Below are positions 3,101 to 62,092 of a stretch of 64,000 nucleotides of DNA, piece by piece. Numbering within the stretch: position 1 is the stretch's first letter; every line of letters starts with the position of its first letter. Source of the stretch: Ascidia mentula (taxonomy: Eukaryota > Chordata > Ascidiacea > Phlebobranchia > Ascidiidae); assembly GCA_947561715.1 (NCBI GenBank), contig OX387199.1, forward strand, positions 1,121,001 to 1,185,000, written 5' to 3'. The notes below the pieces were generated by a model. That model was given only the letters and a program-made list of their open reading frames with translations, had not been told where the DNA came from and made no database searches. Position numbers and translations under genes: made by a program.

Positions 3101-6100
3101 GTCTCTTGTCAATTGCTTTAATAAACTGCACTGCATTAAATTGTTTGTTTTTTTCTTAAATCTCCATTTGAAACCAACTTTATCAAACAAGTGCGTAAAA
3201 CTGACCGAATCCTTGTGGTCATACACGAGTAAACTGTACTGTACTGATTTGTTCCAAAGAAATACTGACCATGCTACAGAGCAAGCAAAATAGTCTTTGG
3301 AAGTTGCTTAACTGTAATGTGGCTTCAACCCCGCATTCTCATCGTATTTCAGAAGGACAGTGGAAATGTGAACAAGATTGAAGTTGATTTCTTGTTGGCT
3401 GCAAGAGTCGCCACAATCTGCAAACGACCTTTCATGGCAATTTTGTTCGTTGAGCTGTGGATAGGTTGGAATTAGATGATTTTATTTTGTTTGATTTCTT
3501 GTTGTTTGGTTACTTATTTGTGCGTTTGCAGATAAACTTGAACTAAAGCTGGAAAAAGAAACTGAATCTGTAACAAGAGGTTTGTGATTATTCCACTTAA
3601 ACTGGATTTGCTTTGGAGCTTGAGTCAGTCGAAATACACAACATATTTATACTTGTAATATTCTGGATTATAAACGAAAAAGCGTTGAAAAAAACGTTAT
3701 TTTATCCAATGTTTTGCAACCGCAGGACGGGACCGTAAAAGTACGAACCGGGCTTTATCCTTCTCCGGTGATGCTTTTACCGAACCCAAGGAATCTACTT
3801 CGGACCAGAAAAAGATGAAGCAAATTCTATCGTTGAGATGTCAGGGTCTAAAGTCGCCCATTTCCATCTTACAAACTTGCGAACACGGTAAGAGTGGACA
3901 CTGTAATGGTCGCAGCCGGAGGTTGGTATTGAAAACGGTAACGACCAGTGGTTCTTAACCCTATTTCTCTCATTCTAACTTCCAGTTTCAACGGAATCCT
4001 TATTTCCCATTAGTATTTAAATTTTTAAACTTTTATATATAATTATTTCATTTGCACTATATCTGTTATACTTGTGTCCCACCGGTTAAGAACCACTTGC
4101 ATAGACGAAAACAAACTTATGTAAAGCATTTTTTGTGAGTAGCACCCCTAATAGTGTCAGCTACAAAAGTAATTGTTTTTCGCTCTGAACATTTTTTTCT
4201 ATGCAGTATAAATAGTCATTTCCAATCAGTCTACGGAGCGGGTTTTCAAACCTCTCAAATTTTAACGCCTGCAGGTTCTGAGGCAAAGAACGTTCTCATC
4301 TCCGCTTACGACACGATTGGGGAATCGGACGGTTTGAACGGTTGTTATTCCTCGTATCCAATCAACCCTGTGGGCGACACAGCCCTCATCCATTTAAGTG
4401 AGAAAGAAGGTAAATGGTTGGAAGCTTTGAAGATGTACGACCTTGCTTCGTCCTCTGGTCGCGACGCTTCTAATAGGAAGGTATTTCGTTGTTCGCTTGT
4501 TGTTACAAGATTTTGATAAACGTGAAACTATTGATCCTCATCTTGGGGCAATGTTTTGACATAATCAGCCTGCATTTTCACTTGAATTATAAACTTTATT
4601 CCTGTGTCTTAAAGGTAACTTTGGGACATGTAAAATATTTTGTAATTTCGGGAAACGGTTTTTTGGGAGTGCTGGCGTTTTTTGGTAAACCACATTTAGC
4701 TGCATTGGTAGGATCAATTACGTATTTACATCCAGAGCAAGGTGGTGGAATGCTTACAACAGTCTGGGTTGGATCATTTGTGTGACGTTTACATGAGGGA
4801 GGTGGATGCGAACCCAGCGAGTGAACGGAAATATAATCTTGCGGACGCGGTACGTGGAAGGTGTTATCTTGATTTTCAGTATAGTAGAGATGTTCTGGTT
4901 ATACTCTGGCTCTGCTGTCGACCAATAAAAAAGACTAAACCTTTGGAGCGTTTGTAGAAAGTCGGTCCGTTTTACCATGGCAGTAACTTTTTTGTTTTTT
5001 CCTTTTTAATTGTGTTAAGTTTTGTTTCGAATTGCGTGGAAGCATCTCAGCCATAGTGATCGGTGAGGTTGTAAGTTTTCCTGTTATTTTGAATAAAAAT
5101 TAACTGGCAACCTGGCTACGTAACCAGATAGACCAAACTCACTCGCCATCTGTATTGGTGTAAACTGATGGGAAACAGTGTGCTTAGTATGCAGGTCACG
5201 AATCATTAATGCTTGCTTGCTTCCAAACAATCAACTATTTCATTTGCAAATCAGAATAGTATACAGTGATCTGCGAACAAGGCCACTGTTTACTGGATCG
5301 GTCTCATCAGGGCAGTTTTGGTTTGAAAAAACATTATAAGCTGCATTTCTTACACGTAATAACATTATATCCCACTTCCAGAACCTGGTTGAAGTTCAGT
5401 ACAAAGCAGCTTGGCAATCTTGTCAGTGGGACGAATCTCTCCTTAACATAGAAGAAGTTTCTCAACCACTCGGATTCCACCAACATTTGCACCGATGTAT
5501 GACGTCAGCATTTGATGATAATTGCAACAACTTTCACTCACTCTTGTCGGAAGCCAGAATCTCGTGCCTGAGGTAAATTTGGACATAAAATTAACCAACA
5601 ACCACATGTGATTGCCTCACAAAATTCTATGCCTTTTGTGTATTTTGACAAATTGGATTTGAATTACATTAAAACGTTGATTTGGAGACAAACCAAAATT
5701 GTGTTTTCGCTTATTGTCGTTCGAAGCTGTTAAAACCCAGAAAACAGCTCACTTGAATGCAGAAAAAACGACCAGTAAATAAGTTACTGACGTCACGCTT
5801 TTTTGCAGCGAATTCGACGCCCGGCAACCGAATCACGTGATCACGTCTGATCTTCACACGGTTTCGTGTCGACTCCAGTCCCTCCTCGAAATAGAAAACG
5901 TCAAAAAGTAGGGAAAAACCCACTTACGATACTCTGTATTGCAATCTCTGTATTATTGAAACTATGTCATCTGTGGTCTGGAAGGTTGTCGGTATTTGTT
6001 TGCGATTTCAACCCACAGTTCCACTTTACGTGCTTTTAAAGATAGGAACAGTGGATGATTATAAGACAGCAGTGTCTATGCCCACAATTTTGTCAAGGAG

Positions 6101-9100
6101 GGTTTGTTTGAATATTTTCAGATGCCTTTCGGACGAAACCACCATAAGCGAATTCCTTCAATCCCTGAACGATTTCGATGAAAACAATTCTCGTAGATTT
6201 CGATTCGATGACGTAAATTTGCTACTTACCGTTCGCTCATCCGTTTTGAGTTCGTTGGCAGACAGGTAAGTTCTACGATCAGATTGTGCATGTGTTTAGA
6301 TAAACCTCGCAACAGGTCTTTTCTAAGAATAAAATGACTGGCTCATACTGTTGAAAATATGTTTTATTTATTTAAAACCTTTCGGCAAGAACTCATGCCA
6401 TCGGGTCTTTTCCAATCTCTTGCATCTTTCAGACTGGCTGATTTTATTTAAATTTACAAAAGCTCGTTTCATCAGACGTGACAACTTAACGCAAATGCAC
6501 ACTTAACGTATTTTGATCATGCCAGTGTCCACATTTCTATCCATGCCATATTTTTCACCCAGATATGCAGGCAGTGATTCGCGAGCCGCTGAAACCCAGA
6601 GTCGCCATTTGCTCACCTCAATGCGAATATGTTGCCAACACGACCGACTTCAAAACGCCCAAAAATTACTGCGCCAACTCAGTGACGTCACGTCGCGCTT
6701 GAGCGATGACGGCGACGCAGGTCACGTGACATGGACGCACAAGGTCAAGTTGGAAGGCGCCAAATTGTTGTGGACACAGAAGGTGTTTAAACTGTTTCTG
6801 AATTCACTTTGATTCTAGTTTATTAATGAGAGTTTACAATAAATTCAGTAAGTTCTCAATGTGAAAAGAATCTTGACGAATAGCCAAGGTCCTAACCTAA
6901 GGGCGACATTTTAGCATTAAAAATTGCTTTTTCAGGAGGTTCCTTTCGCACTTGCGTCTCTACAAAATCTTTTGAGTCAACTCGAATCTGCCGTGAACGA
7001 AACGAAGCGCTCATCCGACCTATCTTCCCTCCAATTGATGTTGGCGGAATCGTTACAAACTTACGGGGTTTGGTTGCACGAATCGAGATACGAGGGACCC
7101 TCAGTAATTATGGAAGATTACCTTGAACGGGTGGGAAGTCTATGTGGACTGTAAAAATTCCTGTATTAGGTTTTGCAGTGCTATAACTGTATTGAATCTT
7201 CTAAGGTATATTTTTTCATTTGTGGAGTTTTGCACGATCGTTTAGCCGTATTTTTGATATCATAGTTTATTTCGTCCAATGGTAGATAAAGTTGATCGTA
7301 AACCGTGGAAACGGTTGTAATGATTTGATTTACATGCAGTCTGTTTCGGTGGCGGATAAAGTTTATCAGTCAACAAATAATTCCGGCAGCTCGACAACTC
7401 ACAACGATTCGCTCCAACTTTTAGTGAAGAATTATCACATGTTGGCAAAGTTTGCTGACGAACAATATCAACAGGTATGGAGTTGAACCTGTCATGTATA
7501 ACGTGGCGGGAATTAAATTCCCTTTTCGCAACAACTACTTGCTATAAGTGCAAATACGTTGAGCTTATTAGTTTGAAAAATAACGCCAAACATGCCTTTG
7601 TGGCAATGCATACGCAAACGTTTCTTACACTATTACGTTCTTAATTATAATAATATCTTTTTTGGGGTTTTGTGCATTTTTCTGTCTGGGCAGTCACTAT
7701 GATGTCATAATATGTTTCAGGTGATCAAGTACAAGAAATCAAGCGAATATGCACAGAAACGCGTCCTTGCTTCTGCTCCCAAACAAGAACTTGAAAGCAT
7801 GCAACAAAGTGGACAGGCTCCAGCCAGAAAGTAGGAAATTCACAGATTTTCTGTTTCTTTACGTGAATAAAACACCACAATCTGGCGGCACTGCAGGGGG
7901 TTACGCTTAGTTTGGTACCCAATGGTTAATGGTGGCTTTACAGTCACCACAAAGTGTAAGCCTTGCTTGGCTATTTAACTGACAAGATCGTTGTATATCA
8001 CACCATAGCTGCACTGAAGAGGCATATTAAGTTAAAACAGTGCCTTGTCTGCAGCTCACCATATGAAACAACACAGCTTGTGTTAAGGCAAAATTATGAA
8101 AGCTTCGCAGACGGAAGACATTTGTCATTTTCTGTCTGTAGGACACAAGTGATCGTCGACAAGAATTTGAACATCGACAAACAGGAACTCGCGAGAGTGG
8201 AAGAAAAATCCCGCGACTTCCTCTCGTCCGCCCTGCGCAGTTACATCCAATGCGTCCAGCTTTCAGACAAGCACGATATTTTAATGTACAGGTGAGGGTT
8301 TCCAAAATCGCTTCATTTTTATAAAATTTAGCCCAAAAAATAAATTGGACAACATCGCGCTTGCCTTATTCGAAACACGTCCAAATTGAATAAGTGGGTT
8401 TTGCTTTTGAACTAATTTGGTGAAAGTGGTTAATTAGCGGTTATAATTACAGTTTCGTGTTACTCTTAGTGTCTTGCAGTCATTTTTTATCACACCTAAA
8501 TTAAAAGCGTATGTAATGGAGATTTCAGCAATACCAAGTTTTGTTAAAATTAGCTGCGTATTTGTGGAGATATCGATGTTTAAACTTTTCAAACGGGAAA
8601 CACTGACTTTCGTTGTGGACAAAAAATGCGGCGGTGCACTGAAGTGACGTCACAGAGAAGCTTTGTTTTTGTGTATTGTATAAATTGTAAGGAATTGCAG
8701 CCAGCTTTTCACATACATATCTTCCAACAGAATCTGTGCCTTGTGGTTCGAGAACCCCAACATGACCCCGACCAACAGTTTAATGTCGACCAACCACAAC
8801 AGCATTCCCTCATACAAGTACATACCCCTGTCTTACCAATTGGCGGCAAGACTAAACACAACTACCGGGGTTTTTCAAAATACTTTGAGAGAAGTAAGTC
8901 CTGGGGAAATTAAACTAAAGAATTATTCTGAGTTGATTCCAAGCTAAAATTGTTGTAAAATATCGAGGTTCACATGAAAATCTTTAATTTCTTAAGACTG
9001 TTGTTTGTACTGATTTTGTTTTTTAAGATATTGTTGCGAGTGACGATCGATCATCCTCATCACGTGCTCACCGTCATCCTTGCTCTTGTCAACGCCAAGA

Positions 9101-12100
9101 AAGACGAGGAATTTAATTCCAATCAGATGCCGTCCTCCAGAAGGAAATACAAAAAATCTTCGGTATGATGAATAAATAAATCTTCACGTTGATATTAAAA
9201 TTATGTGACCTTTTTGGGGCATGCCTACAATGACGTCATTATTAGTGACGTTCGTCTGGCGTACACTGTGCCATTTTGGAACTGCGGTTGAAAACGTTCA
9301 TAATCAAATTTGTTTTTGTTTCTGAAAGACTTTTACGTGGTTAAAGATGGTGCTTCATGTAACTAACGTCACTAGTTATGACGTGCCAATGACGAGTGAA
9401 TTTATACACAATCATTTGTGACGTAATAATCACGTATCGAACGATTCAATTGTTTCAGAAGAAAGAAAACTTGTCATCCCGAGTCACAGCCGCCACAACA
9501 TTGCTCTCGAAAATCCGACAACGTCGTCCAACCCTCGTACAGAACACTGAACTTGTGATGAACGCGTACATAGGTTGGTTCATTCTACATAACATATGAG
9601 TGTTGGTGAAGTTCCGTTGCAACGACCGAAACATCGAGTGTAATGATGAGCTTTTTGCCATAGGAGCTTTTTAAGTTCATTCTATACAACACATACGCGG
9701 AAGTTTGCCTGTGGTATAACCTGGAAAATACTTGTTATAGTCAGTTCATACTATAGGTTCGTTTTTTCTTTTTGTTGGTTTAACTGTTTAAAACCTTTAA
9801 GTACTCTAAAATCCTTTTATTGGTTCAGGATTTTGTATCATATTTCGACCTGACATAAAACAGTGCGCAAAAATAACATGGACGGTTACTATAACAACAC
9901 GTCAGCAGCCTGTCGAAAATATATTTTTTCCGGCACTCAATAAAGTGTTGTTCATCATATATCTAAGACCTATTTCCTCATAAAAGCTCCAACATATTTG
10001 CAGAGTTTGCCAATTTTGACGCATCCCCGTGGAAAAGTCAACCCAACGTGAAGATCGAGCTGCCAAAGCACGTGACTTTAGCAAAGTTCGCCGACCCCTC
10101 GAAACCCTGCCCCGGATTCCAAGATGTTGTCATGCCGATATGTAACGCTACAGTGAGCAAGGATGCAGATTACAGCTCCACAAAAGGTGGGGAAGCCCCT
10201 ATGTAGTTTTGGTTGCTCAATCAAAAATAACATTCGTAATATTTCAACAAATAAAGCGCTAGAAAAATGGAATTGAAACTTAAAATAAACCGAGGTGGTA
10301 TGTTGAACATGACAGAAATACATATTGTGATATCATAAAATTATCGTTACTTCTTGGCATACACTCTAACTTGTCGTATGTTTCAAATAAAGCATGAACT
10401 TACTGCTAAACACAAATATATGTAAAGCGTTGTAGTGCTTTATTGCATTGCAAAGTTTAAGAATGACTCCGAGTCCACGCAACAACAGCGAGGAGAAACG
10501 CGGCGAAAAAAGGCAATTAATCCGCTTCGTTATAATGCGGTCAAGTGAGCGCTACAAATGCAACATTTTTGCGGTCGACTTTCTGCAGACATTTGCCCAA
10601 GTGTGATACTGTAAATGAAAAGTACCACAGAGTGGAAATTCTGTGCGTGTTAGTTTGCAGTTCTGTGTACAGGCGTGTCTGCAGCTTAGCGATTATTATT
10701 GATCATTTACTTCTATGCGTTATTGTGGTTAGTAAAATTTCGACCATCATCCGGCCTTTTTACATCACAGGTATTGTCACCTTCCGCTACATCAAACCTT
10801 ACTTTGAAACTGTTGGTGGGGTGAATTTACCTAAAGTCCTCGTTGCTGTTGGATCGGACGGTGTTGCCAGGAAGCATTTGGTGAAGGGGAAAGACGATTT
10901 ACGCCAGGATGCTGTTATGCAACAGGTAATATCCAGGCCATGGGAATTTAACAATAAAGTTATTTATAAGAGTTTTGAACAATAATTTTTGGTATGTAAA
11001 CTGTGGTGCCAAGAATATGTTTCATAAGCTGCACTGATGAGACCTATCAGGTCGAAACAGTGACCCTGTATGCAGCTTATTTGAAGATTTTTATGTCACA
11101 AGATCGAAACAAGACTTTGTGCAACGCCACCGTCATAGTAAACCGCTGGCAATCGTTTACATTTCAGTGAAATGATTAGTCTCAAGTAATGTGTCAAAAT
11201 AATATGGGTTAGATTCTAACAAAATTCCAATGTTTGACACATTTTTTTGTTTTTGGAGGTTATAATTTAGGTTAGAAAATGTTAATACATTTTTGTTCAA
11301 TTTAATCCTAAATGCATAATTTTTCCCGATAATTTTAACAGGTTTTCGAAACGGTCAACAGCCTTTTACGCCAAGTCCATGACACTTCGGGGTTACGCAT
11401 CCGGACCTACAGAGTCACACCACTATCCCAGAGGAGCGGATTAGTGGAGTGGTGTGGGGGAACCACCCCTATCGGTACCTACTTGGTTGGAAATTCGCAG
11501 CAGGTGAACCATGTTTTTTTTTACTAATCAAGAAAAATCAATAAATTTCCGAAATTAACTTTAGAAACTGACAAACTATAAAACAAAAACACGGATTTTT
11601 TACAAAAACTACCATGCCGTGACTTACGTTAAACACGCTTTATGTTATAACATACCGAAGTGGCATAAATTGAAGGCACTCAAAGTTCCTGAGGGGAAAA
11701 TAGTAAGATAAACTCCACTTTATTGAGTGCGATACAGAAAAATACAAGTGAACACAATGAGAACTTAAAAATCTCGTGTTAGAACTTGACGCAACATTGT
11801 TTCCAATATTTCAGGTCGGGGCCCACCACCGTTATCGGCCCTCCGACATTCCTGTGATAAAATGCCGCAAAATGATTGGAAATATCGCGAATCAACCTCA
11901 TGTCGTCAAGTTGAGCAAATACAAAGAAATCTGCTCATCTCTACGTCCCGTGTTCCGATATTTCTTCACTGAGAGATTTCTGGATCCTGCAGAATGGTTC
12001 GCCAAGCGGTGGGGTTTGAAGTTGTATTTAATATTATGGTCACCTATGTACACAAGACCGGTTAAACTGCGGCGCTCAATTAAAAAAGGAATGCTTACAT

Positions 12101-29500: not shown

Positions 29501-32385
29501 TACTTTATAACTTACTTATATCACGCCCTGCTGTTTGAAATGTGGTGTTTCCTGTAAAACTACTATCGGTTACTTGAGCGATTGTTTGGGGATCAATTCC
29601 TTGTCCCCAGTTATGCAAAGTTGGTTGTGCACTTCGATCAGGAATCATTCCTCTTGGGTGCATAACAGCTTGATGGGAATTCCTCAATCGTGGTGGATAG
29701 TATTGGTTATAGAATGGATACCATCCACCAGAATGTTGGAAAGGTGAATATCCTGTGGAATTGGGGTAAGGTTGTTGTACATTGGTTGCCTGTGGGATTC
29801 CTTGACCTGGTTGAGTTGACTGAGGATTGTTTGTTTGTCCAACATCAAGAGGCAAGGTATCCTATAACGATAGAAAAACAAACATTATTATGTTTTTACT
29901 AGTTATGTGCTGCACCAGATCTGGGTACTTAAACCCCGGTCGGGTGTGTTTTCAGTATTCGCCCCCGGTCAGGTAATAAACTTGGATTTACAGGATGGCT
30001 GCAGAAGCATTTATGTCAAAACAAAGCAAGATTATTCCTTTTAGGACCTTCATGCACAAAATACTACTTGCTGGCTGGCACAATGATGGCTTGTTTGTTG
30101 CTAATTACATTCTTGCTTTATTGTGTGTTGTGCCTCAACAAGTTACTTAGTATGTTATAAATAAGTCTGGTGCCAAACCGAATGTTGGCTCAATTATCAA
30201 ATCTGTGTGTACCTGAATTAAAGCCAATATTTATTAGAAAGTACAATAATACTTGGGTGTCATGGGTGATATAACGTTAAGCTTTTTTGGTGCTTTACCA
30301 CATCATCTTTAATGATACCACACTGCTACAAACACTACCAAAACAGACGTATTTGTTTTTCCCATTGTTTTATCAGCACCTACATGAAAAATGTAATTGA
30401 AAAGACTTTTTGCTTGTAATGAAATACTGATCATTTAAAACCATATCAATTCATAGTACAAGTGTTACTAAAACACAAAAGTGCAAGTCTTATTACAACG
30501 TGGCCACTGAAAAAAGACGTTTCGTCCGTGAACTGACGAAAAATTACACTTGTTTCGTAACAATGCAACATGTTTGGTAACAATACCAAATGTTCGGTAC
30601 CAATGCTCCCTGTTTGCAAACAATGGCGAAAGCAAGCACGATGCGGTTTTTAGGTCAACGTCAAAGAAAATTTCTGGTTTTCACGCGGATTTTGACAAAA
30701 AAATACAGTGGCGTTTGTTTAGTTATCACAAAAGACCAAAATATTTCACAAAAGGGGGGGTCCAGACCCCTCGGACCCCCCCCCCCTGGATACGCCCATG
30801 CAAACATGTAATTACATTATTACATTATCGTAATGTTTTTCCCTATAAATAGGCCATTGTTCCTTTGTATGGGTAATTTAGATTGTTGAAAGTTTACCAA
30901 AATGTGTTTGCAACTCAACTGTATCAAAACAATCGTAGCTTAAGCAACATACTTTCACGCATAATACTTTGCATAATACTTTACACACGAATATATTTGG
31001 AGTTCAAACAAAAGACAATTTTTGATTATTTATGTTAGCATACATTTGCAGAAAGGTTGCTGAATCTCAGCACAAACAAGTTGTTTCTGAAAGGATTTGA
31101 ATGGTCCTCTTTAATTTGTTGGACACATGACAAACTAACATCAACAAAACTTATTATTCTTCACGCAGCAACTATTTGTGCTATGCAAAGTGGAGCCCAT
31201 AATATGAATTGTGTATAAGCTGCAGACAGATGGCCACTGTTTCAATCTAAAAGGTTTCATACCACTATTCTTCCCAAATATTTCAAATACACAAGGTTTA
31301 GAACAAACCATAAAAGTTATTTTACATTCCACACAAATATGAATTCCAAATGTCAAATATTTGTTCCAAAAAATGATTTTCTTTATGTGTAAACACTACA
31401 CATTTTTGCTATGCTGGTAAAACACATGCTTGGTTGGATTTGATCAATAATTATCCACATCTGGCTAGTCCAGGACTTTTTTATACAGTTGCTAGTGTTT
31501 TGAAGTAGTGATATATAGAAACTTTAGTTTGCCAAGTTCTTTAGGCCAAATCAACAATCTTGATGAATCTTTAATTTCAGTCAAACAATTTGTTCAAATT
31601 TGGCCAAAACCAATCTTCCATGCATACATACATTCTTGAACAACAGCAATAGCAAATGACTTATGATTGTGTAGCAATAATAAACTTCTTATTAAAACAG
31701 GACATTTTGGCTTTAAGTCATAGCATTAATCATCACCAAGACCATGCATATCCATTTCAAAAATGCTGACTTAAGAGGTTAGATGATAGACACTGATAAG
31801 CCAGTTATTGGTTTGTTTATACATTACTTGGTTTTTATGCACATTAGTACTATCTGTCTGCCAGTAAAACTGACAAAAAAATTTCAAACGTGAATATAAA
31901 GGTTCACCTGGTGTCATAAATGATTCAAAGCGGGAGTGATGTATGTAGTTTTAACCAGCAACCAAAATAACCCACCGAGCTACCCAAATACAACGAGAAA
32001 TGTCATTTGGCAAAGAATGCCACATCCATTAATATTCAATCAATTTGAATGGTTATAAAAAACTCTTTTAAACATAAAATTTTAAAATTATTTTTTAAAG
32101 AAGTAATCTAGACATACCGGACTTGTTTGGTTCTGTATCATTTTAGAACTGTCACCATCATAATTCTGGTCCATTCTAGTTGTTTTTTGTGGCAACTCAA
32201 AACAGTTTTGATCAAATGCAACTCTTTTTCTCTTTAATGTGTGACAAAAATTAGTTTCCACATAGTTTAAATGGTTATAAAAACTCTTTTAAACATAAAA
32301 TTATTTTTAAGAAGTAATCTGGACATACCGGACTTGTTTGGTTCTGGAACATTTTAGAACTGTCACCATCATAATTCTGGTCCAT
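17563..32385 (-). CDS. NOD-like receptor: disordered N-terminus, NACHT ATPase, LRR repeats
   Basis: Intracellular innate-immune receptor of the NACHT-LRR family. Minus-strand exons in order: 32329-32385 or 32118-32174 (alternative first exons), 29516-29861, 29407-29475, 27356-29106, 27069-27224, 26617-26778, 26143-26304, 24930-25091, 24139-24300, 23503-23673, 23250-23303, 22899-23054, 22354-22515, 21244-21405, 19097-19258, 17770-17922, 17563-17583. All phases close, giving 1,355 residues. The N-terminus is rich in Q, P, Y, N and G and shows no CARD, DEATH or PYD fold. The last exon encodes only FMWLKI plus stop, and AATAAA follows at once. LRR exon order is from position and phase; alternative splicing is likely because almost all LRR exons are phase 0. 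Confidence 0.85.
18012..18043 (-). repeat. Half hammerhead motif (degenerate)
   Basis: On the minus strand AGCTGCA (18043-18037) is followed by CTGATGA (18036-18030) and a partly pairing stem II, but GAAA is replaced by GATG and no 3' stem I arm follows. About 50 bases away on the plus strand lies CTGTCTGCAGCT (18090-18101), the 3' half in the opposite orientation. I read this as a rearranged relic of the ribozyme repeat. Confidence 0.4.
18600..18989 (-). mobile_element. Degenerate hAT-like MITE related to 37521-37950
   Basis: Read on the minus strand from 18989, the first 90 or so bases (AGGGATGCACTGAAAGTTCGG and the TTCGGCCGAAAC blocks that follow) match the left end of the element at 37521. 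The match resumes weakly near 18600-18640. The middle is different, and the second terminus is not recognisable, so the element is truncated or carries an insertion. Confidence 0.5.
19369..19480 (+). repeat. tRNA-derived SINE-like sequence
   Basis: GCTCTGGTAGCTCAGTCAGT followed by TAGAG resembles a tRNA 5' half with A box. The B-box region is degenerate (GGGTCGCAGTT), and there is no acceptor stem closure, so it is not a tRNA gene. The same sequence recurs at 21511-21610 within the duplicated LRR-exon unit. Confidence 0.5.
20040..20849. mobile_element. hAT-like non-autonomous DNA transposon in an LRR intron
   Basis: The 810-bp unit is flanked by the 8-bp direct repeat AAAGAGTG (20032-20039 and 20850-20857). 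Its ends are inverted: CAGGGTGTCG on the left and CGACGCCCTA on the right. An 8-bp duplication with CAGGG-type termini fits the hAT superfamily. The sister unit near 22040 lacks it and has only a single GAGAGTG there, an empty site. No transposase is evident. Confidence 0.8.
21511..21610 (+). repeat. Second copy of the tRNA-derived SINE-like sequence
   Basis: Nearly identical to 19369-19480 and at the same place relative to the LRR exon, so it was copied with the exon unit, not inserted again. The tRNA-like A-box block GGTAGCTCAGTCAG is kept and the B box is poor. Confidence 0.5.
25248..25986. mobile_element. Terminal-inverted-repeat element (MITE-like) with GCAC-rich interior
   Basis: AAGGCCTGTTTACAC (25248-25262) is matched in inverse by GTGTAAACGGGCCTT (25972-25986), 14 of 15 positions. 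The interior holds runs of GGCAC/AGCAC pentamers at 25277-25320 and GCACA-rich DNA at 25840-25935. The sister intron near 26440-26470 runs straight through the same flanks without it. A clear target duplication is not visible. Confidence 0.7.
27356..29106 (-). other. NACHT exon of the NOD-like receptor
   Basis: A single 1,751-nt exon carries the whole NACHT module and its helical C-terminal part. Walker A is GQPGIGKTTLSK; Walker B is VFITMDGLDEA. The acidic GLDEA form is typical of NLR NACHT domains. Downstream LIWQEYFAACYLV matches the conserved helical region of NLRs. The exon begins with two bases completing a codon from 29407-29475 and ends in phase 0 (CAG|GTATG), ready to join any phase-0 LRR exon. 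Confidence 0.95.
30757..30801. repeat. G-run/C-run transposon-end-like sequence
   Basis: A run of G, then TCCAGACCCCTCGGA, then a long run of C and TGGATACGCCCATG. Such G/C-run termini are found on several DNA-transposon ends in marine invertebrates. No second terminus was found, so it is only a fragment. Confidence 0.35.
31212..31263 (-). ncRNA. Partial hammerhead ribozyme relic in NLR intron 1
   Basis: On the minus strand there is ATGA, an AACCT/AGATT stem II with one mismatch, GAAA, a CAG/CTG stem III, the GTC cleavage triplet and TGCAGCTTA. The 5' stem I arm and the first bases of CTGATGA are lost, so self-cleavage is unlikely. It is in sense orientation with the NOD-like receptor transcript. 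Confidence 0.55.
32118..32174 (-). CDS. NOD-like receptor alternative first coding exon (proximal)
   Basis: ATG at 32174 opens a 19-codon exon (MDQNYDGDSSKMIQNQTSP) with a GTATGT donor in phase 0, matching the phase-0 start of exon 29516-29861. It is a tandem copy of 32329-32385; the two proteins differ at one residue (I versus F). Flanking DNA, including AAACTCTTTTAAACATAAAA, is also duplicated. Confidence 0.8.
32329..32385 (-). CDS. NOD-like receptor alternative first coding exon (distal)
   Basis: ATG at 32385 opens a 19-codon exon with the same donor, phase and almost the same protein as 32118-32174 (MDQNYDGDSSKMFQNQTSP). Both can splice to 29861. The exons would be mutually exclusive starts or the upstream one would be used with the second skipped. 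Confidence 0.8.
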
Positions 32386-42136: not shown

Positions 42137-42781
42137 CTGTAACAAAAGTAATGTATTACGTCATATAACAATAGCTTCGCGAGATTTGTGTTTCCAAATG
42201 TTTAAACACGAAGAGTCTCCAAAGCTGATAATCTGTAAATGTTGTGGGTTTGTTTTAAAATAACCAAGATTATTACTTATCTCAACATGTAGATTCTTGA
42301 AACTGCTTGGGTGTTTTTGCTCGTCTATTACTACTTGGACAAATCAGATAACACGAATGTAGGGAACATATTTAAGTGCTTTCACCTTATGTAACGACTG
42401 GTTGGGTTTTTAGGATAAGTGCGAAAGTTGACCGGTTTCTCATCACTTTTGTCCCTGCAATGGGGGTGACGGTAATAATTATCACAAAACCACACAGCCC
42501 TTATCTTCATCCCATCATCGCAAGTGAACTCTGCAGAAAACACATGAACGTAAATCGATTTGAAATCATTCGTCAACATTTATAAACCCAAGTAAATGAT
42601 ATTTGAAACTTAAATTTAGCGAATAACTAAAAAAAACCTCTGTCTTAGAACCCAAAGGCTTTGGGTCTTGCTCTTCACCTAATATTCGTAAAACAATCCA
42701 AGATCGACGTTGACCGAAAGGTACCACAAAGTGGAGACTAGTGTGCCTGCTAGTGTGAAAGCTAGCACAGTGCCACACAAC

Positions 42782-42841
42782 AGCTGCACTGATGAGACCT
42801 TACAGGTCGAAACAGTGCGTGTACACACCCTGTCTGCAGCT
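42782..42841 (+). ncRNA. Intact type I hammerhead ribozyme
   Basis: Stem I arms AGCTGCA (42782-42788) and TGCAGCT (42835-42841) are complementary. Between them are CTGATGA (42789-42795), stem II GACCT/AGGTC with loop TAC (42796-42808), GAAA (42809-42812), stem III CAG/CTG with a 14-base loop (42813-42832) and TC ending the canonical GTC triplet (42833-42834). Cleavage is predicted after 42834. It is antisense to the LDLa receptor gene, in its intron between 43367-43428 and 42386-42530. The upstream TACCACAAAGTGG block is shared with 10617. Confidence 0.9.
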
Positions 42842-43428
42842 TTGCAATCCATGGTTGTTTGTGATTAACGCATGTTTGTCTGTAATAGCCAACCTACCTA
42901 TGGGACATCCCCAATACAAAGTGGAATAACAACAAATATCGCTAGCTGAAGTGCGTCTGCAACCTGTGTTTGTTGTTGCGTGAATGAAACGTGAGAAATC
43001 AATAAATTGTTTTTTGATGTAAATTAATCGAATATTCTGTTCTTCCCACACGAACCGATGCCTCAAGGATCGGTGGAAATTCCTGGTTTAAAGCTGGTGG
43101 ATTTTGCCCTCGTTCGTCAGACTTGGAACGCACGGTTTTTCCCCAGAAATACGAGGCCATTTATGCTTTATGATTATTGTTCGTGTGCGCATAGAAAATC
43201 TCGTGCAATATTTATTTGATTTTACTGGTAGAGATCAGTGCCGCAGTCCAAAGCTGCAGAATTCTAAGTTTTTTTTAACCCGAACTTTTTTTGAATAGAT
43301 TGAGGGAGATTGCTATTGGGTCACCCCTATATGGTAGCTTAATACAAGTAATAGCAAAATGCATACTTGGTTCCTGAGCTGAAGTGAGTGAGATCAGGAT
43401 TCCAGCAACAACTACCTTCAACCAATAC

Positions 43429-56494: not shown

Positions 56495-57960
56495 ATGTGT
56501 GATCCTGCTTCACCGTCTTCGTCTTCCACAGTCGAGAACCCGGCGGTTTTGCTAGTATCCAGCTGCGCGCACGCATGGCAACAATCTTGCCTGCATGTTA
56601 AAGAGTTAATGATGAAAATTGACAACGCTGTTCTTGTTAAGGATATACCTGCCACAGCTGGAGAAGTGTTTTTCCGACCTGATTAATGCCTATGCGCCGC
56701 TTGCTGAAAACAGCGAATTGGCTCTAGCAAGACAGGATTGCCAGCGCGCAAAACGTGAACTCGATTCTCGTGTTGCGGAGTGGTTTGCCAACGCCAAGAA
56801 GTCAACTGGGCGTCGGAAGACTATATCAAGCCGATCGTCGAGTTCACATGTTGACGTACATATCTCTGTTTCTTCCACCTCCTCGATTACCCGTCAAAGA
56901 ATAGCCGCTCGTGTTAAACTTCAATTGGCTCGGGTGTCACAGCGTCAAGTCAATGAAGATTCTGAACTTGCAAGGCGTCAAGCAGAACTTGATGCTGAAC
57001 GAAGAAGAAAACAGGTCGACGATGAGGTAGACATGGCCGAGGCTGAAGTACGTGCGTGGGAGGAAGAATCCATTGCTGGAGATCCCCTGCTGTGTGACCC
57101 AAGACATCCTCCCGTGACAAGTTCCTCTGTCGTGGGGCTTCGACCTGAGTTCAATAGTGCGCCGGTAAATGCTTACCAAACTGCTGTCCCTGTCGTACCA
57201 CGGTCACACCCAACTTGCGTGGATACGAAGCCGTTTTTCCCGCAATCTGTCAGCGCACCCGTTGCTAAGTCATATCAAGGTCCTGATCCCTTTCCGTTGA
57301 ACATACAGGATGTTGTCTCTCCGTCGCGTAGATACGTCCCAGAAGAGGACTTCATACAACAGCGAATCGTTTTGCCCCAGCCCGCGGTCAGAAAGTTTGA
57401 TGGCGATCCGTTGAACTACTGGTCATTTGTTCGTGCTATTGAGTCCCATGTTCATAGCCGAACGAAGTCCCAAGATTCACGGCTAGTTTGTTTGTTGCAA
57501 TTCTGCGAAGACTTCATTGCTGCTAAACTTGAGATCTACAGCAAGGATAAGATCTCAGGATACTCCAAAGCCCGTTCCCGACTTGAATACGATTACGGAC
57601 AACCCCATATTATTGCCAACGCATGTGAACGCCGGCTCAAACAATTTCCGCCAGTCAAGCAAGGTCGACCAAAAGACCTGATGGAATTTTCTGACCTTTT
57701 AGAAAAGTGTCGCAGCTCACTCGAAGATATTGAGGAGTACGCGAGCTTGAACTCCTTGGATACGTTAAGACAGCTAATTCGAAAACTGCCGTTCCGGCTT
57801 CAAGAGAAGTGGATCGAACGTTCCGTTCAAGTGCTCGACGAGACTGGATCCCAAGCCGGATATCTCGCCTTTACCAATTTTGTCGTAGAGCGACCGCGCA
57901 TCGCCAACTCGTTGTTCGGTGTCGAGGCTGTCTACGAAAGCGTGCACGCCTTTGTTCAGG
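56495..57960 (+). pseudogene. gag region of the BEL/Pao element, frame-shifted
   Basis: A start codon at 56495 opens one frame, but the homologous gag protein continues in the next frame from about 56650 (frame of 56619-58004). The middle part matches the DUF1759-type gag core (RKFDGDPLNYWSFVRAIESH to LRQLIRKLP). The end is disturbed: after IANSLFG the expected spacer and first zinc knuckle are missing, and the remaining Cys-rich segment (CRGCL..., GTFHHTKLH) lies in the pol frame. So two frame changes bracket gag. The gag product of this copy is probably non-functional unless made by frameshifting. Confidence 0.8.
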
Positions 57961-60900
57961 TCATCGTTGCGGGAAATGCACGATTCGCAAGCCATGCTCG
58001 GTAGAAGGTTGCACTGGCACTTTTCACCACACAAAGTTGCATGGCGCCTTTCAGAAGAGGCGACCCGGCAAGATTACAGAGAACCCTGCCCCGAAGCCAT
58101 CGCCGATAGAACAATCGGCAACGATAATGGAAGCTACAACGGACAACTGCGGAGTCTACCTCAACGTCGTTCCCGTAAAGGTCAGACACAACAACATCGA
58201 GGTAAATACGTACGCTTTTCTTGATCAAGGTTCTACGTCTACATTTTGCGAACAAGGTCTGATTGATAAACTTGGTCTGCAATCCAAGGATCGAAAGATT
58301 TGTCTGAGCACTCTGACAGATCAATCGCGAGTGTACCAAGGCTCCACTGTGTCCTTCACCGTCATGCCGCTTGATGACGGAGAGCCGTTGTTGTTGCCGG
58401 AAGTGCTGTCCATCGACAAAATTCCCGTGTCGCCAAATAGGATCCCTGATGCGAAGAAGCTTGCGGAGTTCAATCACCTCAAGGAGTTGCCCCTGCGTCG
58501 CCTGGAAGGGGGAACTGTGACGATACTGATCGGAGCCGATAACCCCGCAGCCTTCCACGTACAGTGTACACGTTCTGGACCGCAGGGGACACCTTGTGCT
58601 GTAAAGACATCTCTTGGCTGGTCACTCTTTGGTCCCGCACTTGGTTCGTCTGCAAGGAGCGAAGCACATGTCCGTTTTTTAAAGGTTGCACAAGTCATGT
58701 TCCAACGGGAGATAGAGTGTTTGTGGAAGAGCGACTTTGGCGACGGAACATCAGTATTCGACATACCCTCATCCAGGGAAGATCGAATTGTTTATGACAC
58801 GATGAAGGCATCGGTGAAGCATCAAGATGGACATTTTGAGCTCCCATTACCTTGGAGACCTGGAATCGAAAAGTTGCCACCCAGCCGCCAGATGGCGGAA
58901 AAGCGAATGGTCGGTTTGAAAAGACGATTGTCTAACAACGATGTTCTGCGAAAGGGATATGTAGACACGGTGCAAACGTACATATCCAAAGGATACGCCG
59001 AAGAAATTCCCGACAACAAGGTCGTGACAGACAATCGCATCTCGTACCTGCCTCACCACCCAGTATTTAACCCACACAAGTCTGACAAGCTTCGTGTGGT
59101 CTTTGATTGTGCTGCCCGAAGCAGAAGCGTCTCACTGAACGACGCACTGATGCAAGGTCCTGATTTTGTAAACAGTTTGGTTGGCGTGCTAACCCGTTTT
59201 CGCTGTCAGCCAGTTGCCTTGATTGCCGACATCGAGGCAATGTTCCACCAGGTTCGGGTGGAATCCCGTGATCGCGATGCACTTCGATTTCTCTGGTGGC
59301 CCGGTGGAGATCTGACCTGTACACCGACGCCTCATCGGATGAAAGTGCACTTATTTGGTGCAACGTCCTCTCCGAGTTGCGCCACCTTCTGTCTGAGGCA
59401 GACCGCAGATTTATTCGGTAAAAACTTTGATCCACAGGTTGAATCCGTTTTGCGGCGCAATTTTTATGTGGACGACTGCCTCGCATCCGTCAAGGATATA
59501 GAAACTGCTATCGCTGTTCGTCTTCGTTTGAAAGACCTGCTAGCCAGAGGAGGATTTCGCTTGACAAAGTGGCTCTCTAACGAACAGCGCGTTTTGGAGT
59601 CGGTTCCCGAAAACGATCGAGCAAAGGTTGTGAAATCGCGTTGCCTCGATGATGCTACGCAACAGAGAGTCCTTGGTGTTCATTGGTCTGTTGCGGAGGA
59701 CGCATTTCGGTTCAAAGTCAAACCGCCGAGCAGGCCGCACAAGCGTAGAGGAATCCTTTCAGCTGTCAGTTCACTTTACGACCCTCTGGGTTTCGTATCT
59801 CCCGTGATTCTAAGGGCCAAGTTATTGCTGCAGGACTTGTGCAGAATGGAACTGAATTGGGATGACGGCATTCCGGAATTGATATCCGATAACTGGAAGA
59901 GGTGGCTTGCTGAGTTGCCTCACTTAAGCAATGTTGTCGTTCCACGTTGCTTCAGGTCTTCGAAACTGAAACCTCCATTGAAGTATCAACTGCATCATTT
60001 CGCTGACGCATCTAAGTATGCGTATGGCGCCGTATCATATCTTCGCATCGAAGACGATCACAGGACAGTGATGTGTTCTTTTCTGATTGGAAAATGCCGA
60101 CTTGCCCCGTTGAACACGAAGACGATCCCTCGACTGGAGCTCACCGCTGCTGTGCTCGCTGCGAGGTTGGATCGCCTCATGAGAAAGGAACTAGACTTGC
60201 CCATTGAAAGTTCAGTTTTCTGGAGTGATTCCACTGCTGTTCTGTTAAGCATTCGAAATGCAACCAAACGGTTTCCAGTTTTTGTCGCCAATCGCCTGGC
60301 AGAGATTGAGCGACTGACCGACATTACGAATTGGAAACACGTTCCTATAAAATTAAATCCCGCAGATGATGCCTCAAGAGGTCTACCCGCTGATGCCCTT
60401 GTCAATTCGAGTCGCTGGTTAAAAGGCCCAATGTTTCTCCTGGAGCCAGAAACCAACTGGCCGTCGCAACCGCCAAATGCTGCTGATGTTCCTGAGGAAT
60501 TTAATCCGATGGGGAAGGCTGTAGCCTCCTGTACTGTTAACGTACATAAGCCGAAGCACCCCATGGATCGAATCATTGAACGTTACTCGTGCCTACATCG
60601 ATTAAAGAAAGCCGTGGCCTGGTGGATGAGATTTAAGATGTTTTTGATACATCGAAGGAAATTATCAATTGTCCCGTCAACTAACATTGGCTTGTCTGAG
60701 TTGAAGATCGCCGAGTTGGAACTTGTCAAGTACGAGCAGCGGAAAAGTTTTGCTTTACTTCTCTCTGCATTAAGTGGAAATTCTCGACTGAAAAAGACTG
60801 ACTGCAGTCGTTCCGTGTACAAGTTAAACCCTGTTCTGGTTGATCAAGTGCTCCGTGTTGGTGGACGTTTAGACAAAGCGCCGATAAGTTTCAACGCGAG

Positions 60901-62092
60901 ACATCCTGCAATCATGCCCCATTCTTCGCATTTGACTGACCTATTAATCCTGGCCCATCATGAAAGAGTTGGACACTCCGGGATCGGACACACCTGGACT
61001 TCAGTTCGACAAGACCACTGGATCATCAAGGGCGGTGTTGCCGTACGGCGCGTGCTTGGAAAATGTCTGTCTTGTCGACGCCGCAATGCTCAACCGGGTC
61101 GGCAGATGATGGCCGATCTGCCGTCGGCTCGCTTGGGAATCGCTGAACCTCCGTTCTCCAATGTCGGAATTGACTATTTCGGTCCTTTTCTGGTGAAGCA
61201 GGGTCGCAGCGAAGTGAAACGTTACGGTTGCGTATTCACCTGCCTTACAATCCGTGCCGTTCATCTGGAAGTTGCCCACAGTCTGTCTACTGATTCGTTC
61301 ATAGCTGCCCTTCGTCGTTTCATTGGGAGACGCGGAGCACCAAAGCATATCTTCAGCGACAATGGCACAAATTTTGTTGGTGCCGAGAAAATACTGAGAG
61401 AGTCGTTGCAAGCATGGAACCAGCTTCAAATCTCTGAATTTCTGCTTCAGAAACAGACGTCGTGGTCATTCAACCCTCCTGCTGCAAGCCACATGGGTGG
61501 CGTTTGGGAACGTATGATTCGTTCTGTTCGTCGGATCATGTCCTCGCTTGCTGGTTCCCAGGTGATGTCTGATGAAGTCTTGGAGACCTTGTTTGTGGAA
61601 GCTGAATCCATAATCAACTCAAGACCCCTTGTCCCGGTGACATTTGATCATAGGGACGAAGAACCGCTGACCCCGAATCATCTCCTGCTGATGAGAGGAT
61701 CGCCCAACCTGCCTCCGACGATTGCAGAGAAAAAGGATTGCTATACAAGACGGCGTTGGCGTCAGGTGCAGTTTCTCGCTGACCATTTCTGGAAGAGGTT
61801 CGTGAGAGAATACCTGCCGGTTATCACTGCTCGTCCCAAGTGGCATGATGATTCTCATCGCAACTTTAAGAAAAATGATGTCGTCCTACTTGTGTGCGAA
61901 TCTGAGTGCCGTTCAAAATGGGCGATCGGTCGAATCATTGAGACGTACCCCGATGAAAATGGAAGAGTTCGCATTGTGCTCGTTCGGACGAGCAGCGGTG
62001 TCTTTCGGCGCCCTATCACAAAACTGTGTCGCATCGTTGATTCTGATGAGACCTCCTCAACCTTTCCGAGCGATGTCAGCTCGGTTTGCTAG
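57809..62092 (+). CDS. pol polyprotein of the BEL/Pao element
   Basis: One open frame of 1,427 codons. The first 30 or so codons overlap gag and are not homologous; the Pao-type part starts near 57890. Protease: LDQGST near 58220. Reverse transcriptase: VALIADIEAMFHQV and FYVDDCL (the YVDD active site near 59465). RNase H: HHFADASKYAYGAV and FWSDSTAVL. Integrase: H2C2 zinc region near 60958-61080, then GIDYFGPF, FSDNGTNF and GGVWERM giving the D, D, E residues. C-terminal DUF5641-like chromatin/DNA-binding tail to 62092. All catalytic residues look present. Confidence 0.93.
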   Translation: MDRTFRSSARRDWIPSRISRLYQFCRRATAHRQLVVRCRGCLRKRARLCSGHRCGKCTIRKPCSVEGCTGTFHHTKLHGAFQKRRPGKITENPAPKPSPIEQSATIMEATTDNCGVYLNVVPVKVRHNNIEVNTYAFLDQGSTSTFCEQGLIDKLGLQSKDRKICLSTLTDQSRVYQGSTVSFTVMPLDDGEPLLLPEVLSIDKIPVSPNRIPDAKKLAEFNHLKELPLRRLEGGTVTILIGADNPAAFHVQCTRSGPQGTPCAVKTSLGWSLFGPALGSSARSEAHVRFLKVAQVMFQREIECLWKSDFGDGTSVFDIPSSREDRIVYDTMKASVKHQDGHFELPLPWRPGIEKLPPSRQMAEKRMVGLKRRLSNNDVLRKGYVDTVQTYISKGYAEEIPDNKVVTDNRISYLPHHPVFNPHKSDKLRVVFDCAARSRSVSLNDALMQGPDFVNSLVGVLTRFRCQPVALIADIEAMFHQVRVESRDRDALRFLWWPGGDLTCTPTPHRMKVHLFGATSSPSCATFCLRQTADLFGKNFDPQVESVLRRNFYVDDCLASVKDIETAIAVRLRLKDLLARGGFRLTKWLSNEQRVLESVPENDRAKVVKSRCLDDATQQRVLGVHWSVAEDAFRFKVKPPSRPHKRRGILSAVSSLYDPLGFVSPVILRAKLLLQDLCRMELNWDDGIPELISDNWKRWLAELPHLSNVVVPRCFRSSKLKPPLKYQLHHFADASKYAYGAVSYLRIEDDHRTVMCSFLIGKCRLAPLNTKTIPRLELTAAVLAARLDRLMRKELDLPIESSVFWSDSTAVLLSIRNATKRFPVFVANRLAEIERLTDITNWKHVPIKLNPADDASRGLPADALVNSSRWLKGPMFLLEPETNWPSQPPNAADVPEEFNPMGKAVASCTVNVHKPKHPMDRIIERYSCLHRLKKAVAWWMRFKMFLIHRRKLSIVPSTNIGLSELKIAELELVKYEQRKSFALLLSALSGNSRLKKTDCSRSVYKLNPVLVDQVLRVGGRLDKAPISFNARHPAIMPHSSHLTDLLILAHHERVGHSGIGHTWTSVRQDHWIIKGGVAVRRVLGKCLSCRRRNAQPGRQMMADLPSARLGIAEPPFSNVGIDYFGPFLVKQGRSEVKRYGCVFTCLTIRAVHLEVAHSLSTDSFIAALRRFIGRRGAPKHIFSDNGTNFVGAEKILRESLQAWNQLQISEFLLQKQTSWSFNPPAASHMGGVWERMIRSVRRIMSSLAGSQVMSDEVLETLFVEAESIINSRPLVPVTFDHRDEEPLTPNHLLLMRGSPNLPPTIAEKKDCYTRRRWRQVQFLADHFWKRFVREYLPVITARPKWHDDSHRNFKKNDVVLLVCESECRSKWAIGRIIETYPDENGRVRIVLVRTSSGVFRRPITKLCRIVDSDETSSTFPSDVSSVC

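Follow-up and report, generated by a model that had tools for sequence, protein, structure and literature searches.

The hammerhead motif in an ATM intron of Ascidia mentula is most probably (about 0.92) the ribozyme of a short non-autonomous retroelement, akin to animal retrozymes or Penelope-associated elements, that was inserted by chance, would cut weakly and is tolerated. The motif belongs to an element family of high copy number, lies in the sense direction within its intron and has an odd make-up, in which an inverted fragment of the element body leads into the hammerhead. Positions below are those of the window, the whole 64-kb stretch of DNA that was analysed.

As an earlier note had proposed, the sequence has the layout of a putative type I hammerhead on the sense strand, with the listed elements in place and a predicted cut at 11070/11071:

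11024..11080, plus strand: type I hammerhead motif, from sequence, folds and a covariance model built without this copy
11024-11033 / 11071-11080, plus strand: stem I, 10 bp
11034-11040, plus strand: core CTGATGA
11041-11045 / 11049-11053, plus strand: stem II, 5 bp with a 3-nt loop
11054-11057, plus strand: GAAA
11058-11060 / 11066-11068, plus strand: stem III, 3 bp with a 5-nt loop
11068-11070, plus strand: GUA triplet, predicted cut 11070/11071
10771..10925, plus strand: ATM exon upstream of the intron, from splice sites, joined frame and PDB match (1.2e-13)
11342..11503, plus strand: ATM exon downstream of the intron, from PDB match to ATM (7e-11) and reading frame

The CUGANGA..GAAA..NUH core is represented by CTGATGA, GAAA and GUA, and three helices of 10, 5 and 3 bp are possible, stem I being open-ended. 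Stem I appears as a continuous 10-bp helix, and because it has no internal loop, the sequence gives no sign of a tertiary contact with loop II. To describe the hammerhead as complete is therefore too strong. The host intron (10926-11341; 416 nt, GT..AG, phase 0) places the predicted cut 145 nt past the 5' splice site and 271 nt short of the 3' one. Its assignment to the ATM kinase domain is borne out by the flanking exons, whose joined translation is stop-free in frame 2 and which match adjoining stretches of the ATM chain 6k9k_A in the PDB (residues 2679-2732, E 1.2e-13; residues 2731-2784, E 7e-11).

Rfam alone would dismiss the motif, because nothing in the whole 64-kb window reaches a gathering score. 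The best hammerhead-type results of a local Rfam scan were RAGATH-1 (18.3 bits, E 1.5) and HH9 (16.4 bits, E 0.29), the latter against a gathering score of 52, and snoRNA models scored much as the hammerhead models did. Genome-wide counts point the other way: the core pattern CTGATGAGACCTNNNAGGTCGAAA has 1765 exact copies (896 + 869) in the 195.8-Mb assembly, and the reversed pattern has none. Counts within the window are weak by themselves, with five occurrences of CTGATGA..GAAA against 1.56 expected and nine of the looser CTGANGA form against 5.34 expected.

Of the 44 distinct other copies, 39 went into a family covariance model that excludes the ATM copy; the five badly decayed ones were dropped by eye (L033:114-170, L038:58-108, L040:4865-4914, L015:1504-1556 and L031:1386-1436). 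Against this model the ATM copy scores 77 bits (E 3e-20), the top of nine window matches with E of 1 or less. The significant covariance-model match on which the earlier note had staked its claim is absent from Rfam at the gathering level and clear for the family model. Across the 39 copies, standard pairs occupy 93% of cells in each of stems I and III, compared with 20-35% in slid structures. The overall share of paired cells, 94.2%, does not exceed that in shuffles (94.4%); these percentages are flattered by the removal of the five decayed copies. None of the 16 pairs is altered on both sides in these 39 copies, as expected of copies decaying without selection on structure. The hammerhead structure is inherited from a master element, and compensatory change does not show it. 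As a sequence, the ATM motif is far beyond chance.

The ATM motif belongs, by sequence, to a short retroelement that is very common in the Ascidia mentula genome. The assembly itself is marked as ascidian by its mitochondrial code: COX1 on contig C79, judged by eye, gives sensible protein (GGFGNW and GTGWTVYPPL, for instance) if AGA and AGG are translated as glycine. When the whole 416-nt intron was compared with the genome, at least 46 matches were found, 45 of them elsewhere, among the 40 of 413 candidates that were scored; all matches listed fall within intron positions 52-171. The fetched loci form one family with subtypes. The A type consists of tandem units of 285-286 bp with one hammerhead each, mostly with a GUC cut site and the loop III sequence TGGCCAT, and its insertions often stand head to head with both hammerhead ends outward. 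The unit of the B type, exemplified by 42701-42848, is 148 bp long. A rarer type, with loop III TGACC or TGGCC, is nearest to the ATM copy. Seven places, including the ATM copy, lie within three mismatches of it over 44 nt; UA precedes the cut in five of the seven (four GTA, one ATA), and the others have GCA and GTT.

The tandem units of the family, spaced at 285-286 bp, fall within the 170-400 bp expected of retrozymes; the ATM copy is a fragment of about 100 bp that is not in tandem. One array, L053:140-1965, is a tandem run of six hammerhead units of 285 bp preceded by a single inverted partial copy, and a 12-bp duplication, ATAACACCTAAT, bounds it. Exact target-site duplications of 12-16 bp flank 12 of the 28 insertions examined, or 10 when the pairs L035/L036 and L017/L018, which share duplications and are probably duplicated stretches, are counted singly. 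A further six of the 28, the ATM copy among them, have 6-8 bp, and the remaining ten have at most 5 bp. Dispersed copies with target-site duplications are thus a property of the family; the ATM copy has a weak duplication of only 6 bp. At three loci (L048, L049 and L050; C1:1.92-1.98 Mb), kinase-like genes recognized by eye are locally duplicated, and the hammerhead copies at L048 are carried along with stretches repeating at about 2.8 kb.

These features make the element, judged on its DNA, one of the kind called non-LTR retrozymes in animals. According to the available portion of the source, metazoan non-LTR retrozymes carry type I hammerheads in units of about 170-400 nt (PMC7229834). The same portion describes short tandem units with one type I hammerhead each (285 bp here), thousands of dispersed copies in some genomes and duplications of more than 4 bp, all of which resemble the present family (PMC7229834). 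The likeness is one of DNA, not of RNA or circles, and there are differences from the retrozymes described there: stem I here has no internal loop and so no evident loop-loop contact, a second subfamily of 148 bp exists, and insertions occur head to head with ribozyme ends outward (PMC7229834). The hammerheads of Penelope-like elements and Terminons, as far as the accessible parts of the reports describe them, are likewise minimal type I forms with possible dimeric action and tandem arrangement; unlike them, the present motif has a short stem III of 3 bp plus loop (PMC7761336, PMC11167929).

Unlike those of Penelope-like elements and Terminons, the present hammerhead was not seen attached to any element that has a reading frame of its own. 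The genome resembles those bearing such elements in having at least 121 matches to the GIY-YIG domain among the 150 of 382 candidates that were scored; some of the matches lie in frames 700-892 codons long, and in tandem or inverted arrays. One region, G000:C67:6134028-6146916, has GIY-YIG in five frames (559-892 codons), arranged in tandem and inverted in a Penelope-type-like array, three of the gaps being 2.87 kb. GIY-YIG is also found in other proteins, and because it is not exclusive to Penelope-like elements it can only suggest a link to them. The search for a hammerhead beside a reverse transcriptase or GIY-YIG domain took in open reading frames of at least 110 aa, listed by position in 20 windows and inspected as sequence at L048-L050. 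A point against the retroelement reading is that the element was not linked to any reverse-transcriptase gene. The element would have moved by target-primed reverse transcription, with the reverse transcriptase supplied in trans, and its mobilisation was perhaps by Penelope-like elements, which would be the likeliest source of the enzyme. The presumed task of the ribozyme in the mobile element is to divide multimeric transcripts into single units.

The ATM copy itself is composite:

10980..11079, plus strand: whole mobile-element copy (about 100 bp), made up of an inverted body fragment and the hammerhead, ends estimated from homology
10980..11033, minus strand: element body from about +1 to +54 past the cut, in reverse complement, from body alignment
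10974..10979, no strand: candidate target-site duplication TTTGAA, left, weak (6 bp)
11080..11085, no strand: candidate target-site duplication TTTGAA, right, weak (6 bp)

Homology over 10980..11079 reaches 79% over 112 columns with L010 and 77% over 121 with L011. The inverted arm is identical to L010 in 58 of 83 columns and to an L053 unit in 45 of 61. The last 10 bases of this arm are the 5' strand of stem I, so that stem I is a perfect 10-bp helix because an inverted copy of its 3' strand supplies the 5' strand. The candidate TTTGAA duplication has zero offset on both sides, with a null P of 0.089 when loose offsets are allowed; this weakness, together with the ten of 28 insertions with 5 bp or less, counts against the retroelement reading.

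An inverted join of this kind, TATAAGCTGCACTGATGAGACC, has 8 exact occurrences in the genome versus 792 for the ordinary A-type upstream sequence; the join of the ATM copy reads CATAAGCTGCA and is not among the 8. In L010, L013, L017, L018 and 10980-11079, inverted body fragments start at or near the cut site and are fused to the ribozyme through AGCTGCA. Such a join could arise if two cDNAs, primed from either side of the target, were joined via this 7-nt stem I word, synthesis of one of them having stopped where the ribozyme had cut its template to leave a 5' end. The AGCTGCA fusions may be a trace of cDNA synthesis that ran off an RNA end made by the ribozyme. The L010 and L013 pieces begin at +1, the L015 piece crosses the cut site and most other pieces end elsewhere, indicating that not every template was cut at the ribozyme site. 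A hairpin snap-back of cDNA would give a similar-looking join, alignments of diverged copies also stop at the cut site, and L010-L028 were picked by likeness to the ATM intron. The two-cDNA account is a lead, not a result.

Further copies of the element are present in ATM and in the rest of the window:

7899..8056, plus strand: older decayed sense copy just upstream of or touching an ATM exon, 73% identity over 164, 45.2 bits
8007-8056, plus strand: hammerhead part of that copy, with core changes, from sequence and family model
5148..5196, plus strand: very decayed sense copy inside ATM, upstream of an ATM-matching stretch from about 5382, 18.6 bits, E 0.0056
5269..5317, minus strand: decayed antisense copy beside 5148..5196, 28.1 bits, E 8.4e-6
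42701..42848, plus strand: young 148-bp B-type copy with GUC cut site, 71.2 bits, hammerhead at 42782-42841
31218..31266, minus strand: damaged copy, CTGATGA partly lost, 44.3 bits
17992..18043, minus strand: decayed copy, 21.3 bits, E 8.5e-4

Six window places besides the ATM motif match the family model at E below 0.01, and the three in the ATM gene all have damaged cores. With the motif itself, the ATM region thus has four copies by this model, of which three are sense and one is antisense; these and the 1765 exact-core copies in the genome leave the idea that the ribozyme is special to ATM unsupported. Decayed copies in both orientations elsewhere in ATM favour the retroelement reading, and nothing suggests that ATM is special as an insertion site. 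The three decayed copies are placed inside the gene because PDB matches run in ATM order around them (4139-4513, E 0.078, weak; 5340-5573, E 0.003; 7960-8292, E 0.0025). Intron limits around them are approximate, as the frames at 4712-4954 and 7286-7483 gave no PDB matches.

An ATM-matching frame, 8047-8292, starts within or just after the decayed copy at 8007-8056. The 3' arm of this copy, ending in TTGTCTGCAG (8045-8054), resembles a 3' splice site, and an alternative AG lies at 8075-8076. Judged from these letters, the element may supply the acceptor of the ATM exon near 8047.

The B-type copy at 42701..42848 is 95-99% identical to the L041 and L051 copies and 83-93% identical to those of L028 and L033, and it has a candidate target-site duplication, CAATCCA, of 7 bp (null P 0.043). 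Its hammerhead is intact, and it is more promising than the ATM copy as a possibly active ribozyme. Home-made coding scores, of which the first missed nearly all ATM exons and the second found several, show sparse exons near element copies in the 20 fetched windows. The region 56658-62025 on the plus strand has a very high score of this kind, with three pieces of more than 1.3 kb.

Structure predictions favour poor cleavage by the ATM copy. Its hammerhead fold (-19.2 kcal/mol) lies 0.6 above the minimum free energy (-19.8), from which it differs in stem III. For the ATM copy and the A type, the minimum is the hairpin CACUG-GACCU/AGGUC-CAGUG; for the B-type copy it is the hammerhead. The predicted mean pairing probability of stem III in the ATM copy is 0.16, because the CACUG/CAGUG helix competes, and an A-type copy folded alone does no better as a monomer (0.04-0.05). 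Stem I has a mean probability of 0.28-0.44 in transcripts ending about 120 nt past the motif and 0.89 in the whole intron. Folding programs handle hammerhead cores poorly, so the value of 0.16 may be too low. The stem III loops of the common copies are palindromic, so that these copies could cleave as dimers, and predicted homodimer energies there are -15.3 (A type) and -18.2 kcal/mol (B type). The ATM copy has largely lost the palindrome and would act mainly as a monomer, because its homodimer reaches just -3.0 kcal/mol.

The CPEB3 ribozyme, which has an HDV-like fold, lends itself to comparison. Like the ATM motif it lies in an intron of a protein-coding gene and raises the question of cleavage versus splicing; unlike it, the ATM motif has its next exon only 271 nt away. 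For CPEB3, the available part of PMC10919898 gives a ribozyme half-life of 2-3 min and 9931 nt to exon 3; citing Fong et al. 2009, it also states that splicing is impaired by fast intronic ribozymes but not by slow ones. Natural hammerheads with loops exceed 100 per min and those with one loop missing cleave at about 1 per min, high activity at cellular Mg2+ requiring the loop contact, according to the accessible portion of PMC6155905. At the mammalian Pol II rate of 3.5-4.1 knt/min quoted in the available text of PMC10919898, which may not be that of this animal, transcription from the cut to the 3' splice site (271 nt) would take 4-5 s. Slow cleavage is predicted because the ATM copy lacks a loop in stem I, can form just 3 bp in stem III and has a weakened palindrome for dimers, and splicing should win over cleavage because the cut lies only 271 nt before the 3' splice site. 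On this modelling the ATM copy is predicted to cleave slowly or hardly at all in the cell; the intron would normally be spliced in the seconds that Pol II needs for 271 nt, before cleavage matters, and the ribozyme would be tolerated. The competent-looking, intact B-type copy nearby at 42701 is a point against the weak-cutter view.

A less likely alternative is that the ribozyme is active but neutral, cutting mostly the intron during or after splicing and leaving ATM mRNA unaffected. All core nucleotides fit, the hammerhead fold is within 0.6 kcal/mol of the minimum, and slow intronic ribozymes are described as lacking a splicing effect in the accessible part of PMC10919898 (citing Fong et al. 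2009); its minimal form, with stem III and the dimer palindrome weakened, counts against this alternative, which keeps a modest probability.

Far less probable is that the ribozyme has been domesticated, kept by selection so that co-transcriptional cutting of the pre-mRNA lowers or tunes ATM in this ascidian, a role that has been argued for the ribozyme in the CPEB3 intron. The core, the GUA site and the 10-bp stem I are intact on the sense strand, and intronic precedents exist in CPEB3 (PMC10919898) and in RECK and C10orf118 (PMC3088659), as far as the available portions of these papers go. All core positions of the ATM copy are intact although the adjoining inverted arm is clearly diverged from the A-type body, which is a point against the retroelement reading and could hint at constraint. 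The comparison is biased, because it was the intact core that drew attention to the copy and the parent subfamily of the arm is not fixed. Against domestication stand the 1765 exact-core copies of which the motif is one, the missing stem I loop, the low predicted stem III occupancy and the little time for cutting, with 271 nt to the 3' splice site compared with 9931 nt to exon 3 for CPEB3. The earlier suggestion that the ribozyme shapes ATM expression is accordingly not supported, the motif being a mobile-element copy for which structure predictions favour poor cleavage.

A chance resemblance, or a C/D-box-like or plain hairpin RNA, could draw on the similarly weak Rfam scores of snoRNA models, the competing minimum-energy hairpin of the ATM copy and A type and the pairs without covariation, and is left with almost no probability by the family-model score (77 bits, E 3e-20), the 93% pairing of stems I and III against 20-35% in slid structures and the hammerhead minimum of the B type.

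Hammerheads in animal mobile elements and introns are already known, as the available portions of several papers make plain (PMC7229834, PMC3088659, PMC6155905, PMC10919898). The amniote hammerheads of RECK and C10orf118/CTCL resemble the present motif in being of type I, intronic and thought to derive from mobile elements; they are described in the accessible text as conserved over large clades and cleaving in vitro (PMC3088659, PMC6155905). Unlike them, the ATM copy has no stem I loop for a tertiary contact. Among tunicates, the available part of a report on Didemnum vexillum gives type I hammerhead matches at 9 loci, as a count only (PMC8704543). Self-cleaving intronic RNAs were known, and a literature search on hammerhead ribozymes with ATM kinase introns found work on the HIV Rev response element, to go by its title, and no report of such a ribozyme in a DNA-damage kinase. 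Among the open-licence papers listed on hammerheads and retrozymes with tunicates, Ciona, ascidians or ATM, none describes this family or an ATM ribozyme in its title or abstract opening.

The motif deserves little weight for the control of ATM unless conservation or cleavage is shown; if the domesticated reading were true, a retroelement hammerhead would serve as an intronic brake on the DNA-damage kinase ATM. A motif missed by Rfam has led to a large ascidian family of hammerhead retroelements with at least 1765 exact-core copies. Junctions near the cut site may record RNA cleavage in the living animal. With sense-strand copies lying within genes, the genome may also offer natural tests of how well introns tolerate self-cleaving RNA.
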